Below are positions 18,762 to 25,708 of a stretch of DNA of 64,000 nucleotides, piece by piece. The notes below the pieces were generated by a model. That model was not told the DNA's origin. It worked only from the letters and a program-made list of their open reading frames with translations, and did no database searches. Both the position numbers and the translations under genes were made by a program. How positions within the stretch are numbered: the first letter of the stretch is position 1; each line of letters begins with the position of its first letter. The stretch is taken from positions 1 to 64,000 of the forward strand of contig JAQYLE010000039.1 in the NCBI GenBank assembly GCA_028720205.1, given 5' to 3'. This DNA is from Clostridia bacterium (GTDB lineage Bacteria > Bacillota > Clostridia > Christensenellales > Borkfalkiaceae).

Positions 18762-20474
18762 ATGAAAACCAAAAAAATTTCAATCGTAGTATTGTCGGCG
18801 TTGGCGGCTATCCTGTTCGCGCTGGCGGGCATTTTTGCGATCGGCGCGAAAACGAACGGCAAAGCAAGCGCGGAAGACGCGCCCGTAATCACGCTGGGCA
18901 GCGGAAAATGGGCGAGTCCGGATTATACTTTAACGACAAACGGTACCACGTGGACGGGTACGCTGGCAAACGGCGGATATTATTACGGCAATATCTATCC
19001 TGTTTCAAACGGTTCGTTCGAAACGGCGGTTAAAATTTATTTTACGCCGATAGCGGATAACGCTGCGGCCGCCAACTTCAGATTTCACCTTGCCGACTAT
19101 TCCGGCGCGGCGGAAGTAAAGCAATTTGTAATAAAAAAAACAGAGCCTTTCACGAGAGCAGACGTATCCTGTTATTTCGATAAGAATTATCTGGTTTCTT
19201 TTTCATCATGGAATGCCGAGCCGAAAATCGTAGAATTGACAACCGTAACCCTCGGCACGGGACGATGGGCGACGGATTCTTCAAAAACGGTAAGTTTGAA
19301 TAATTCGACGTGGAGCGGGGCGTTGCTTTCCGGATACCACTACGGCAATTTGTATTCGAGAGACGGATTGTTGTATTCGGGCGCGTACATTGACAAAAAC
19401 GCGAACGCAACCAATACCGAGTCAAATATTATTTTTAATTTGGGAAAAGTGACGGGGGGTGACGAGATAAGCGAATTCGTTGTAAAAGCAAACACTCTTT
19501 TCGCCAAAGGCGACAATTCCAGCGCGTTATGCGTGGATAAAGATTATTTCATCAAGTACGGCAAATGGGAAAGCGCCCCTGCCGTAATGCCGCTTGCAGA
19601 CGTAGTAAGCGTAACGCTCGGCGAGGGAAAGGGTACCGATTTAGAGACAAAGAGAATTTCGTTTAATAATTCCGTATGGAGCGGCGTGCTGGCAAACGGC
19701 GGATATTATTACGGCAATATTTATGCTTTGGACGGAACGAAATTCGAAGCCGTTTCTTCAAGTGCGCTGCCCGTATATATAATTCCCGGCGCTTCAAACG
19801 CTGCGGCTAACATCGTCATCGATTTGTCTAACGTACAAAACGCTTCCGACATAACTGAATTCGTACTTAAAAAGAGCGAAGCGTTTACAAGGGCGGGTGT
19901 TCCATTCTACTTCGATCAAGATTACGTAATTACTTGTAATTGGGGCGGCGTGCCTAACGTTTCCTGCAACTTTACAATGAATACGGGCGCGGCTATCCGG
20001 CTGGGCGAAGTGAACGGGTTAAGGTTCAGCGCAAACGTTGCCAAGTCCGTGGTGGAAGGTTATAGGAACGCGGGGTATACCGTTTCCGCGGGTATGGTGA
20101 TTCTGCCGTACGATTACATAGAAAAGTACGGCGACTTTTCCGCTACGAACGTGTTCGGCGAGGCGTACAAAGGCGTTCGGATTATCGATCTTGCGGCGGA
20201 ACTTATCGAAGAAGACGAGGAAACCTACCGCATTAACGGCTCTATCGTTGAAATTAAAGACGAGAATCTGCAAAGAGCGTTTGTGGGCAGGGCGTATCTG
20301 AAACTTGAAAAAGGCGGCGGCGTTACCTATATTATGTCCGCTTATGCCGATTTTAACATTGCCAACAACTCGCGTACGGTAATGGATATCGCTCAGGCGG
20401 CGTACGACGACTCGGGTACGTCCGAAGAAAATAAAACTGCTTTACAGACCTTGTATTTAAGTAAAAAAAAATGA
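18762..20474 (+). CDS. Secreted protein with three YYYGNIY/YFDKDY repeats
   Basis: A 570-aa exported protein of unknown function. The start ATG at 18762 follows AAGGAGGGAA (the track start is 51 bp too early). A signal peptide ends near GKASA-ED. Three tandem repeats of about 90-120 residues follow. Each has a xTLGxGxW opening, NxxxWxG, (Y)YYGN(I/L)Y, a (Q/E)FV(I/L/V)K stretch and a closing YFDxDYxxxxxWxxxP. After them comes a ~170-residue domain (INTGAAIRLGEVNGLRF-like to AYDDSGTSEENK) that I do not recognise. The gene ends in a run of nine A, then TGA overlapping the ATG of the DUF4838 gene. It may be the N-terminal half of one longer protein. The paralogue at 23651 shares the signal peptide and promoter element. 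Confidence 0.8.
   Translation: MKTKKISIVVLSALAAILFALAGIFAIGAKTNGKASAEDAPVITLGSGKWASPDYTLTTNGTTWTGTLANGGYYYGNIYPVSNGSFETAVKIYFTPIADNAAAANFRFHLADYSGAAEVKQFVIKKTEPFTRADVSCYFDKNYLVSFSSWNAEPKIVELTTVTLGTGRWATDSSKTVSLNNSTWSGALLSGYHYGNLYSRDGLLYSGAYIDKNANATNTESNIIFNLGKVTGGDEISEFVVKANTLFAKGDNSSALCVDKDYFIKYGKWESAPAVMPLADVVSVTLGEGKGTDLETKRISFNNSVWSGVLANGGYYYGNIYALDGTKFEAVSSSALPVYIIPGASNAAANIVIDLSNVQNASDITEFVLKKSEAFTRAGVPFYFDQDYVITCNWGGVPNVSCNFTMNTGAAIRLGEVNGLRFSANVAKSVVEGYRNAGYTVSAGMVILPYDYIEKYGDFSATNVFGEAYKGVRIIDLAAELIEEDEETYRINGSIVEIKDENLQRAFVGRAYLKLEKGGGVTYIMSAYADFNIANNSRTVMDIAQAAYDDSGTSEENKTALQTLYLSKKK
20463..20471 (+). other. A9 homopolymer at ORF junction (possible slippage site)
   Basis: Nine A form the last three Lys codons of the upstream ORF and the first base of the next ATG. 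A -1 shift, or one extra A in the transcript, fuses the two frames without a stop. No Shine-Dalgarno precedes the downstream ATG. Confidence 0.6.
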
Positions 20475-22204
20475 ATTTTGTAACTGACGGAAACACGAAT
20501 TATTGTATTAAAGTTCCGCAGGGCGCGTCTTCTATGATCGGCTATGCGGCGAGCGAGTTGCAAACGCTGTTTGCCGAGGCGACGGGCGCCGCTCTTTCCG
20601 TGGGCGACGGCGGCGAAAGATTCGTCAGCCTTGGCAGAACGGAAGAATTTATCAACGCGGGATACTCCGTAACCGAGGCGGAAACGGGCAAGACGGGCTT
20701 TATTATAAAAACGGACGACAAAGGCAACGTTTTTATTGCGGGGAGCGAGGACGTAGGCACGCTGAACGGCGTTTACGGCTTTTTGGAAAAAACGCTTAAT
20801 TTCGACTGTTTTACCAAGGGCGTATATCATATCGACAAGGTAAGCGAATTATCTTTTATGCCGTTCAACCTTACCGAAAAGCCGAGTTTCGATTACAGAC
20901 AGGTGAATTATGCGGAACTGCGCGAAGACGAAACCACTTACCGCCGTATGCGCATGCAACCTGCGCCCGAACAGTACGTTACGGGCAACGCCTATCACAA
21001 TTCGATAGAAATTCTCACGTATAAACGGGTGTTAAACGGCGAAAGCAAAGACGACGTTATCAAAGAATATACCGCAAGCGGTTGGATAAACAACGGGCAA
21101 CTGTGCTATTCTGCCGCGGATATGCGCGCGGCGTTTATCGAAAGTCTTAAATTGTATCTGCAATCCAAGTATTGTAATCTTTCGCGCAATCTTATGGTGA
21201 TCGGCATGGAAGACGCGGTGACCTGGTGCGACTGTTCCGCTTGCGGCGCCGCCCCTTCCAAGGTTTACGCGGAGTTTATGAACGCCGTGGCGGAGGCGAT
21301 TAACGCGGAGCGCGAAAGCGCGGGCGAATCCCCCGTTACTTTTCTGATGTTCGCGTACTACTATACGCTGGAACCGCCTAAGGGCGTTACTTTAAACAAG
21401 AACGTGGGCGTGTTGTTCGCTCCCATTAAAGCGAGGTTCACGCTGGGGCTTACCGACGCGGAAAACGCCATGTACGAAACGGCGCTTGCCGGCTGGGCGG
21501 CGCTTACCGACAATTTGTACGGCTGGACGTATAACGCGTATTTCGGGCAGACCCTCGTTATGTACGATACGTTCGGCGTATTGCAGGAAAATTACAAACT
21601 GCTTTTGAAGTACGGCGTGAAAGGGCTGTACGATCAGACGGAATCGTATATGGCGGTATCTTCGGGCTTCGGGCGGCTGAAAGGATACCTGCAATCCAAA
21701 CTTTTGTGGAACGTGAACGCGGACGCGGAAGCGCTGACGGATAAATTTTTCAACGCCGTTTACGGCAATGCGGCGGAAACGATGAAAACGGTGTTTAACG
21801 AAACGCGCGCGTACTACAAACACCTGTACGAAACGGCAGATAAATTCAACGGCCAGACGGGGTTGGCGGATTCCGATAAAAGAAAATATTCCGAAGGCTC
21901 GGTGGATTTTGCCGCAAGTTATGCCTGCTTACAAAGCGGCGGTTCGGAATACGCCGCGTTCAAAACCAAACTGGAAGGCTGGATTTCCGCGCTGAATACG
22001 GCGAAATCCGCCGCCGCCGCAGAAGAAGCGGAAAGAATAAAATTAGAAACTCTGCAATACCGTTATCTGTATCTCAGAATTTACGGCGAAACGGATACGA
22101 TTACCAAAGCGGACTTTAAAACGGATATCGATTCCTTCGGAATCCTTTATTATAAAGAAGGCAAAAAAGTTACCGAACTCTGGCAGGAATGGGGGCTTGA
22201 ATAA
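20471..22204 (+). CDS. DUF4838 domain-containing protein
   Basis: A 577-aa protein of the DUF4838 group, which is associated with glycoside hydrolases. The N-terminal part resembles the alpha-glucuronidase/GH20 accessory domain (NYCIKVPQGASSMIGYAASELQ, ATGAALSVGD). The DUF4838 core has MRMQPAPEQYVTGNAYHN, then CDCSACGAAPSKVYAEFMNAVAEAIN, with EWG-type and aromatic motifs after. It has no signal peptide and no ribosome binding site, although DUF4838 proteins are normally extracellular. Its ATG overlaps the stop of the secreted repeat protein (ATGA) at an A9 run. Either it is translated by coupling, or it is the C-terminal part of a frameshift fusion of about 1150 aa that carries the upstream signal peptide. 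The catalytic activity is unknown. Confidence 0.8.
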   Translation: MNFVTDGNTNYCIKVPQGASSMIGYAASELQTLFAEATGAALSVGDGGERFVSLGRTEEFINAGYSVTEAETGKTGFIIKTDDKGNVFIAGSEDVGTLNGVYGFLEKTLNFDCFTKGVYHIDKVSELSFMPFNLTEKPSFDYRQVNYAELREDETTYRRMRMQPAPEQYVTGNAYHNSIEILTYKRVLNGESKDDVIKEYTASGWINNGQLCYSAADMRAAFIESLKLYLQSKYCNLSRNLMVIGMEDAVTWCDCSACGAAPSKVYAEFMNAVAEAINAERESAGESPVTFLMFAYYYTLEPPKGVTLNKNVGVLFAPIKARFTLGLTDAENAMYETALAGWAALTDNLYGWTYNAYFGQTLVMYDTFGVLQENYKLLLKYGVKGLYDQTESYMAVSSGFGRLKGYLQSKLLWNVNADAEALTDKFFNAVYGNAAETMKTVFNETRAYYKHLYETADKFNGQTGLADSDKRKYSEGSVDFAASYACLQSGGSEYAAFKTKLEGWISALNTAKSAAAAEEAERIKLETLQYRYLYLRIYGETDTITKADFKTDIDSFGILYYKEGKKVTELWQEWGLE

Positions 22205-22221: not shown

Positions 22222-22362
22222 ATGAAATACGTTAAACCGGAAATTATTATAAAAACAATCGGCAACGGCGGAATATATACCGACGTTATAACCGTCTCGG
22301 GCGAAACGGGAGGAACGCCGGACGACCCGTGGAGCAAAGATTCTTACACGATAGAAAAATAG
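22222..22362 (+). CDS. 46-aa peptide, unknown, not in ORF track
   Basis: A short ORF with a strong ribosome binding site (AAAGGAGAGAATTTTT-ATG) 17 bp after the DUF4838 gene and before its terminator. It begins MKYVKPEIIIKTIGNGG and continues DVITVSGETGG, ending DSYTIEK. The layout (MKKYxKPxI start, then acidic D(V/I)ITxSG, Gly/Pro-rich end) resembles many small orphan peptides of Clostridia. No modifying enzyme is adjacent. It is neither clearly secreted nor membrane-bound. The function is unknown. Confidence 0.65.
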   Translation: MKYVKPEIIIKTIGNGGIYTDVITVSGETGGTPDDPWSKDSYTIEK

Positions 22363-23650: not shown

Positions 23651-25708
23651 ATGAACACAAAGAGCAGAAAACTTTCAATCGCATTGCTTTCGGCACTGGC
23701 TGCGGTAGCGCTTGCGCTGGCGGGCATTTTTGCGATCGGCGCGAAAACGAACGGCAAAGCAAGCGCGGAAGACGCGCCCGTAATCACGCTGGGCACGGGC
23801 GGCACCGGCAGATGGGCAAGCGCCAACGAAAATATGTCGGTAAAATTCGGCAACGTTACGTGGACGGGCGAACTTGCGAACGGCGGCAATTATTACGGTA
23901 ATATATATTCGGTAGAAGACGGAACCAGATACGCTTCTCTTTCCGATCCTTCCGACGCAACGCCCGTTTATTTCACCCCGACCGCTTCGGGGGAAAACGG
24001 AAACTTCGTATTCTTTTTGAAAAACGTTGTGACGGCGGAAACCAAAGATAACATAAAGCAGTTTCTCATCAAAAAGACGGAGCCGTTTACGCGAGCGGGA
24101 GTTTCCTGTTATTTCGATAACGACTACGTCGTTACCTGCAACTGGGGCGGCGGACCTTCCGCTTCCGTATACGTTGCGCCCGCTACCGTCAGCCTCGGCA
24201 CGGGCGTCTGGTCCACGTCTACCAGCGCTTCCGGAGATCCGCGTTATACCGTTTCGATGAATTCTTCCGCAGACGACGGCTCCTTTATTAAAGGGTATTA
24301 TTACGGCAACATTTATTCTACGGACGGCAGCGTATATACGGGGGCGTATCTCGATTTTCTTGTAAAAGAAGGCGAGGAAGAAACCGCCTCGGGAAAAATC
24401 GTGGCGACTTTCACAAACGTGAAAGGCGCGGAAAAAATAACGGAATTTGTGCTGAAAAGCACCGATTTGTTTAAAAAAGGCGACGGAAGATGTCCGTTCT
24501 ACTTCGATAAAAATTACGTCGTCACCGTGAACTGGGACGGCGTGCCTGCGATAAGAGAAGACCTGCGCACGTTCGTTTCCCTGTCGGGCGGCGTTTCTTC
24601 CGACGAAGCCGAAAAATCGGTTACCGCAGGCGTAAGCGCGCTGAACGGAGTGGCGCCTTCGGGCGAGTACAAGGGCAACGTTTACCCTACTTCGGGCGAG
24701 AAGATAGAAAACGTAGTTTTTGCGATAGAAGCCGCGGAGGAAAGCAACGCGCTGAAAATAACGCTTCCCGATACTTCTGTTACCGATTTCGTGGTGAAAG
24801 CGGGCGAATCGTATGCCGGTACGGACGGGCGCGAAATTTACTTCGATAAAGATTACAGAATTACCCTTTCGTGGGGCGAAACTCCCGTAATCAAACAAGA
24901 CAACCGTATTTTCCTTACTCTTTCGGAAGGCGCGGCGACAACCGACGCAGCCGAAAAATCGGTTACCGTCGTTACGTCGGTGAGAGGAGCGGTGATCGGC
25001 GAAAAGGCGTACGAAGGTTATGCCGTGGATAAGAACGGCGAGAAGACGGGCGTTTCGCTTTACGTTACCGTCGGTACCGAAAACGCAACGGTTAAAGTCG
25101 TTCTCGATTCTACCGATACGGAGTTCTTCGCATTGAGAAAAGCGGATAAATTCGTTGACGAAGACGGCAACGAACTGTTCTTCAACAAAGACTGTACCGT
25201 AAGTTGCGTCTGGGGCGAAGAGGCGACGGTTACCGTTATAGGCGCAACCGAACACGTATGGAGCGATGAAAAGACGCATACGGGCGCGGATTGCACCGAA
25301 AAAAGTTACAAATACAAAGAATGTATCATTCACGGCGATACCGAAGTTACGGAAGAATTGCCCGACAATCATCGGTACGGCGACGTGATTACCGAAGATT
25401 CCACCTGCGCTCAAAAAGGCCGCACGTATAAAAAATGCGAGGTGTGCGGGCACGAGGAGAATTTAAGCGTCATCGAAAAGAAGGAACATACGCCGTCCGA
25501 TTGGATTACCGATACAAATCCCACTACCGAAGCGGAAGGTTCGGCGCATAAAGAATGTACGGCGTGCGGCGAAACGCTGGAAAGCAAAGTATTGCCCAAG
25601 GCCGAAAAGAGCGGTTGCTCCGGCAACGCGTTTGTAAACGCGATGATTCCCCTTACCGTTTCGGCGGCGGCGCTCTTCGTTTTGAAAAAGAGAAAAAACA
25701 AAGAATAA
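23651..25708 (+). CDS. Surface protein with four repeats, Cys-rich modules and C-terminal anchor
   Basis: A 685-aa exported protein. The signal peptide is nearly identical to that of the 18762 protein and ends at KASA-ED. Four tandem ~100-residue repeats of the same type follow, two well conserved (WTGELANGGNYYGNIY, CYFDNDYVVTCNWGG) and two degenerate (EIYFDKDYRITLSWGETPV, LFFNKDCTVSCVWGEEA). Then come short Cys-containing modules (CTEKSYKYKECIIHGD, CAQKGRTYKKCEVCGHEEN, HKECTACGETLESK) common in gut Firmicute surface proteins. The end is SGCSGNAFVNAMIPLTVSAAALF plus KKRKNKE, a membrane anchor without an LPXTG motif. The start ATG follows TTGGAGGAG. Likely a glycan- or host-binding surface protein; the exact role is unknown. 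Confidence 0.8.
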   Translation: MNTKSRKLSIALLSALAAVALALAGIFAIGAKTNGKASAEDAPVITLGTGGTGRWASANENMSVKFGNVTWTGELANGGNYYGNIYSVEDGTRYASLSDPSDATPVYFTPTASGENGNFVFFLKNVVTAETKDNIKQFLIKKTEPFTRAGVSCYFDNDYVVTCNWGGGPSASVYVAPATVSLGTGVWSTSTSASGDPRYTVSMNSSADDGSFIKGYYYGNIYSTDGSVYTGAYLDFLVKEGEEETASGKIVATFTNVKGAEKITEFVLKSTDLFKKGDGRCPFYFDKNYVVTVNWDGVPAIREDLRTFVSLSGGVSSDEAEKSVTAGVSALNGVAPSGEYKGNVYPTSGEKIENVVFAIEAAEESNALKITLPDTSVTDFVVKAGESYAGTDGREIYFDKDYRITLSWGETPVIKQDNRIFLTLSEGAATTDAAEKSVTVVTSVRGAVIGEKAYEGYAVDKNGEKTGVSLYVTVGTENATVKVVLDSTDTEFFALRKADKFVDEDGNELFFNKDCTVSCVWGEEATVTVIGATEHVWSDEKTHTGADCTEKSYKYKECIIHGDTEVTEELPDNHRYGDVITEDSTCAQKGRTYKKCEVCGHEENLSVIEKKEHTPSDWITDTNPTTEAEGSAHKECTACGETLESKVLPKAEKSGCSGNAFVNAMIPLTVSAAALFVLKKRKNKE

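Follow-up and report, generated by a model that had tools for sequence, protein, structure and literature searches.

The window analysed here, a stretch of 64,000 nucleotides from a fragmented assembly of 1.94 Mb, contains two genes that meet at a run of nine adenines (Table 1). The upstream open reading frame, P2, starts at an ATG behind a strong Shine-Dalgarno sequence, ends with the codons TTA AGT AAA AAA AAA TGA and carries at its C-terminus a domain for which we coined the label GLRF, from a GLRF motif within it. The two frames overlap in the adenine run alone, and can therefore be joined nowhere else; joined in frame they encode 1147 residues. An earlier, sequence-only reading of this DNA had described a P2 ending of AGT-A9-TGA inside which a DUF4838 frame opens in the -1 frame, and a single product of about 1150 residues on joining the frames. 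The sequence and its open reading frames confirm the first description, and the computed fusion of 1147 residues, which carries the P2 signal peptide, bears out the second.

Table 1. Features of the P2/P1 locus, in window coordinates
Feature	Coordinates	Strand	Basis or remark
Shine-Dalgarno sequence AAAGGAGGG of P2	18750..18758	+	sequence; duplex energy -12.1 kcal/mol
Upstream ORF P2, 570 aa: signal peptide, about 3 repeats, C-terminal GLRF domain	18762..20474	+	ATG at 18762
P2 repeat region	18882..19967	+	confined to this genome; paralogue at 23660-25231
GLRF domain of P2	19968..20471	+	matches in 44/57 genus genomes
In-frame TAA closing the DUF4838 frame just 5' of the A run	20462..20464	+	sequence; open frame 579 aa
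A9 run, AAA AAA AAA in P2 frame	20463..20471	+	A_AAA_AAA heptamer adjoining TGA
P2 stop TGA	20472..20474	+	
DUF4838 ORF P1, 577 aa, -1 frame	20471..22204	+	ATG at 20471, ATGA overlap
GH67-N-like part of P1	20519-20779	+	
PF16126 match in P1	20837-21790	+	
Small ORF MKYVKPEIIIK...DVITVSGE...	22222..22362	+	own Shine-Dalgarno sequence

In the copies of Pfam and NCBIfam searched, no family matched P2 above its cut-off. P2 has a paralogue at 23660-25708, in which the repeats are 42-47% identical and a hydrophobic, anchor-like C-terminal segment replaces the GLRF domain. P1 belongs to DUF4838, scoring 149 bits against Pfam PF16126 (gathering cut-off 26.6). An alignment of P1 with 30 relatives spans its full length and has 11 invariant columns; a distant search with a smaller alignment returned 19 relatives. 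The domain order of P1, in which DUF4838 (PF16126) follows a GH67-like N-terminus (PF03648), is that of its relatives. Most DUF4838 relatives, however, have their own signal peptide or share one ORF with upstream domains, and P1 does neither.

Initiation at P1 and the adenine run

We found no signal peptide on P1, and the Shine-Dalgarno energy at its ATG is -0.9 kcal/mol, compared with a median best value of about -7 for the genes called in the window, where just 1 of 44 called ORFs has a weaker site; the absence of both a ribosome binding site and a signal peptide, as originally described, is thus upheld. The best Shine-Dalgarno sequence listed for P1 (-3.5) belongs to an inner ATG at 20534, and a start there would cut into the domain. 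The P1 start overlaps the P2 stop, as expected of a coupled pair, but the Shine-Dalgarno sequence expected at a second start is missing. Elsewhere in this genome, eight of ten sampled tight junctions have such sequences, and of the two exceptions at least L112 is probably a false ORF pair. In a sample of the genus, 139 of 154 tight same-strand ORF pairs have a start supported by a Shine-Dalgarno sequence. Sorting the other 15 by inspection, we observed that in most of them the next gene begins further 3' or a stop in the same frame interrupts a gene. The window pair and two others, L144 and L145, are the only ones in which reading passes directly into the following domain in a different frame and no such start is present; in each of them DUF4838 lies in the -1 frame behind a secreted GLRF ORF. 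Gene-calling programs will list P1 as an intracellular protein in its own right, although it probably belongs to a secreted protein.

The P2/P1 junction holds the sole coding A9 of the window, where synonymous shuffles of its 58 kb of coding sequence lead us to expect 6.5; the corresponding observed and shuffled counts are 12 and 17.8 for A8, 46 and 56 for A7, and 131 and 133 for A6. Baranov and colleagues regard avoidance of A9 in genes as a sign of slippage-prone transcription (PMC1088944), and the host genes of this one window show such avoidance. Our homopolymer statistics are based on the window and on further stretches taken from this genome. Genome-wide there are about 40 runs of nine or more adenines, the majority intergenic. 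In the same assembly, coding A9 runs lie intact and in frame in six conserved or recognisable genes, which include VirB4-like, SpoIIGA-like, RlmA-like, AraC and DUF1273-like genes (names assigned by eye), and we conclude from these that the assembly is not usually wrong at A9. A further candidate control for coding A9, L092, was dropped as a multiply broken pseudogene.

Start-less junctions and relatives of the two genes

Our survey of DUF4838 starts covered about 117 ORFs uncut by a contig edge, in which some rows repeat one gene, and 50 partly overlapping rows, about 165 in total. A credible initiation site is missing in only three of these ORFs: P1, L144 and L145. The latter two have no ATG, GTG or TTG ahead of the DUF4838 domain, and at all three junctions the upstream stop lies between -5 and +16 nt from the domain start. 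Two tandem second copies, L159 and L252, have an ATG with a weak Shine-Dalgarno sequence. Among about 107 complete DUF4838 domains we observed one internal frame break, in L163 at a masked stretch, and no clean one. Under a rough, position-only model that ignores selection and homopolymers and serves as a guide only, the probability of three of four breaks landing in the 45-nt linker is about 6e-5. Three start-less -1 junctions of independent origin, set against some 107 domains with no clean internal break, argue against random assembly error. Following the argument of PMC3711429, an isolated frame transition outside any cluster usually reflects an error, a recent indel or overlapping genes; what lifts the window case above that baseline is the pair of analogous junctions together with the absent start codons.

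On a tree of 113 domains the three junctions are mutually independent, and their sequences differ (A9 in the window, T7 in L144, and T5, which is no good slip site, in L145); there is therefore no conserved recoding signal, and we rejected a single conserved programmed site for all three. We found no second copy of the window locus in GTDB or viral contigs and no orthologue of its junction, the T7 and T5 junctions being analogous and non-orthologous. Restart at near-cognate codons is possible at the stops of L144 (TA-ACG) and L145 (TA-ATT); it carries no evidential weight, because 7 of the 16 codons that start with A would qualify.

Visualizing the relatedness of the domains, we observed that the nearest tree relative of P1 is a secreted protein (SH-aLRT 96; 113 domains), that L145 lies among secreted DUF4838 proteins and that L144 has a signal-less tandem copy as its sister. 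A classifier based on composition separates secreted from genuine signal-less domains and assigns the domains at all three junctions to the secreted group. The 18 genuine signal-less copies score at most 0.34, whereas L145 scores 0.84-1.00 and L144 0.72-0.99, depending on settings. Among the three, P1 gives the most ambiguous result: it scores 0.54 with all rows and 0.69-0.95 with four rows removed (L181, L023, L173 and L163, dropped after a first look as mislabelled or incomplete), and we report both versions. Its net charge of -18, intermediate between those of secreted and signal-less domains, counts against a fusion. P2 ends two residues past its GLRF domain, and only 1 of 32 other ORFs ends as close. 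A small ORF like that at 22222-22362 follows 7 of 15 other GLRF ORFs, compared with about 1 of 40 other DUF4838 ORFs, and here it follows P1. Homologues are arranged in more than one way: GLRF and DUF4838 lie within one ORF in L038, L044, L045, L134 and L139, whereas others have a GLRF gene and a signal-less DUF4838 gene as separate cistrons, each with its own Shine-Dalgarno sequence (L143, L146, L147), or form the start-less -1 pairs described above. The in-frame fusions, the secreted sister, the composition, the small 3' ORF and the ending of P2 at its last domain together suggest that P2 and P1 are parts of one secreted protein.

The small ORF belongs to a family of very small ORFs of about 40-50 residues, with a motif like DV[IV]TxSG and often an acidic end with a tryptophan, that lie directly 3' of many GLRF proteins of the genus; apart from the window member, they follow L053, L055, L060, L072, L075, L077 and L081. 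Their products could be partner peptides.

Tandem DUF4838 pairs with a signal-less second copy recur at L001/L002 (contig C14 of the window's own genome), L132, L137, L149, L174, L205, L212 and L217. In composition the second copies are more basic and of the cytoplasmic type. At L001/L002, L132, L137 and L149 the first copy has a signal, and the two members of the pair are sisters or close neighbours on the tree.

Explanations of the junction

The reading that we favour, with a probability of roughly 45%, is that P2 and P1 form one secreted modular protein (signal, repeats, GLRF and a glycoside-hydrolase-like DUF4838 part) whose frame is shifted by -1 within A9 at a domain boundary, and that slippage appends the enzyme. 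Normal reading would yield the secreted, non-catalytic P2 part of 570 residues, while an RNA polymerase that added one A (A9 to A10) would produce the secreted fusion of 1147 residues; a ribosome slipping by -1 on A_AAA_AAA ahead of the TGA would make the same fusion. A fusion peptide across the junction would contain ...YLSKKKMNFVTDG..., and the junction peptide of the fusion would read ...TLYLSKKKMNFVTDGNTNYCIK....

As expected of a slippage gene, the coding strand holds an uninterrupted run of at least nine A, and one added A gives a meaningful alternative product by joining P2 to an intact P1 domain. In E. coli, single-base insertions climb steeply with run length (PMC5574713). For -1 ribosomal frameshifting, the locus offers a heptamer of the form X_XXY_YYZ in the zero frame, the A_AAA_AAA directly ahead of TGA, which in E. 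coli is less shifty than A_AAA_AAG (PMC5009743). We found neither an SD-like stimulator upstream of the window A run nor a stimulatory RNA structure downstream of any of the three junctions (fold z 0.25 in the window, -0.68 and -0.35 at the other two), and the site is not conserved across these independent junctions of differing sequence. Since no stimulator was found, it is safest to expect a fusion product that is minor and unprogrammed; a minor fusion product is likely if the DNA really carries A9, as bacterial RNA polymerase is known to slip on A9 and would add or drop A there at some rate. Of the programmed slippage first proposed, we thus retain slippage, given that A9 is a recognised slippage length, that the window avoids coding A9 and that start-less -1 DUF4838 frames occur in two other species; "programmed" is not sustained, as site conservation, SD-like stimulator and structure are all missing. 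The frame geometry, the missing initiation site, the avoidance of A9 in the window's genes, the secreted-type relatives and composition and the recurrence of start-less -1 DUF4838 ORFs behind GLRF proteins are observed, whereas we infer that A9 is the true state of the DNA and that slippage occurs on it, at some rate and perhaps to some benefit; in this gut bacterium, an occasional slip may decide whether the secreted protein carries an enzyme.

Of the other explanations, one is a real one-base deletion in the run, through phase variation or recent pseudogenisation, such that some cells or strains carry A10 and make the fusion while this assembly records A9, with no useful slippage. Runs of A mutate at high rates and can be exploited by phase-variable surface proteins (PMC3711429); an otherwise undamaged P1 fits a recent or reversible change, and the lack of a conserved slippage signal agrees. 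Neutral decay would nevertheless not be expected to give three independent breaks at one kind of domain boundary and no clean internal break in about 107 domains, and some slippage would be expected from A9 in any case; we consider a deletion rather unlikely. We hold it unlikely, too, that P2 and P1 are two coupled cistrons, in which ribosomes that terminate P2 translation at TGA begin again at the ATG overlapping it, so that the DUF4838 enzyme is made as a separate cytoplasmic protein without a signal. An ATGA overlap is the arrangement expected of a coupled second cistron. A signal-less DUF4838 gene after a secreted one recurs in the genus and the order (L001, L132, L137, L149, L205, L212, L217), with one pair in this genome, and the separate GLRF and DUF4838 cistrons noted above are arranged in the same way. 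Yet nearly all comparable second cistrons have the Shine-Dalgarno sequence that P1 lacks (L252 and L159 are also weak), 18 of 18 genuine signal-less copies score as cytoplasmic whereas P1 scores higher, and the sister of P1 is secreted. Coupling would moreover make A9 a coincidence, and L144 and L145 have no start codon before the domain at which to restart.

Quite unlikely, in our view, is an error of sequencing or assembly, by which the true run would be A10 or another in-frame length and the gene one ORF of 1147 residues. A long homopolymer is the likeliest site for a mistake in length, and relatives carry in-frame fusions. Against this stand the six genes of this assembly whose coding A9 runs are in frame and the L145 junction, which holds only T5; the genome of L145 is apparently a water-deer MAG, judging by its sample name, and the water-deer samples were sequenced by PCR-free Illumina (PMC8199421). 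The assembly indel that had been named as the simple alternative is thus now less likely, given those A9 genes and the recurrence of breaks at the same kind of boundary.

Beyond the single locus, secreted GLRF proteins might repeatedly and independently have gained a C-terminal DUF4838 domain reachable only by a -1 frame change, so that recoding, and not promoter control, sets the enzyme-bearing share, with the window A9 as one of at least three cases. We regard this as doubtful; if true, the known range of recoding would come to include extracellular enzymes, through its recurrent use in gut bacteria to append an enzyme domain to a secreted protein.

Comparison with known recoded genes

Recoding is known for a few cellular bacterial genes, such as dnaX, tssM and the transposases of IS elements. 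A glycoside hydrolase for which it has been described is the α-L-fucosidase fucA of Saccharolobus solfataricus, which likewise is encoded by a pair of ORFs that overlap in the -1 frame and has an A-rich heptamer, A-AAA-AAT (PMC8037382). In fucA, however, -1 programmed ribosomal frameshifting was demonstrated experimentally, and there is a 40-base overlap with rare codons and a proposed structure (PMC8037382), whereas in the window the frames share nothing but the A run, and folding predicts no structure. In Thermus thermophilus dnaX, as described in PMC1088944, transcriptional slippage on a sense-strand run of nine A likewise leads to two products. The genome frame of dnaX encodes the long form and about half of the product is short, while the genome frame of the window encodes the short form. 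In Citrobacter rodentium tssM1, transcriptional slippage on A11 occurs at 20-25% (PMC4256274). There, as in the window, poly-A lies shortly before the stop of the upstream frame, and a slip would add a C-terminal domain and so give short and long forms. The tssM1 run is A11, and its slippage, two products and function are proven; the window has A9 with an immediate stop, as read from its sequence, and the protein families differ. We regard tssM as a close functional precedent for the window junction.

Two large ORFs in related genomes, L164 (G017:C71) and L173 (G012:C168), are cut by a single in-frame TAG after which coding resumes. The L173 domain is nearly identical to that of L028 (G033), whose ORF extends further upstream without that TAG. 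The TAG in L164 and L173 could reflect either a nonsense mutation or TAG readthrough.
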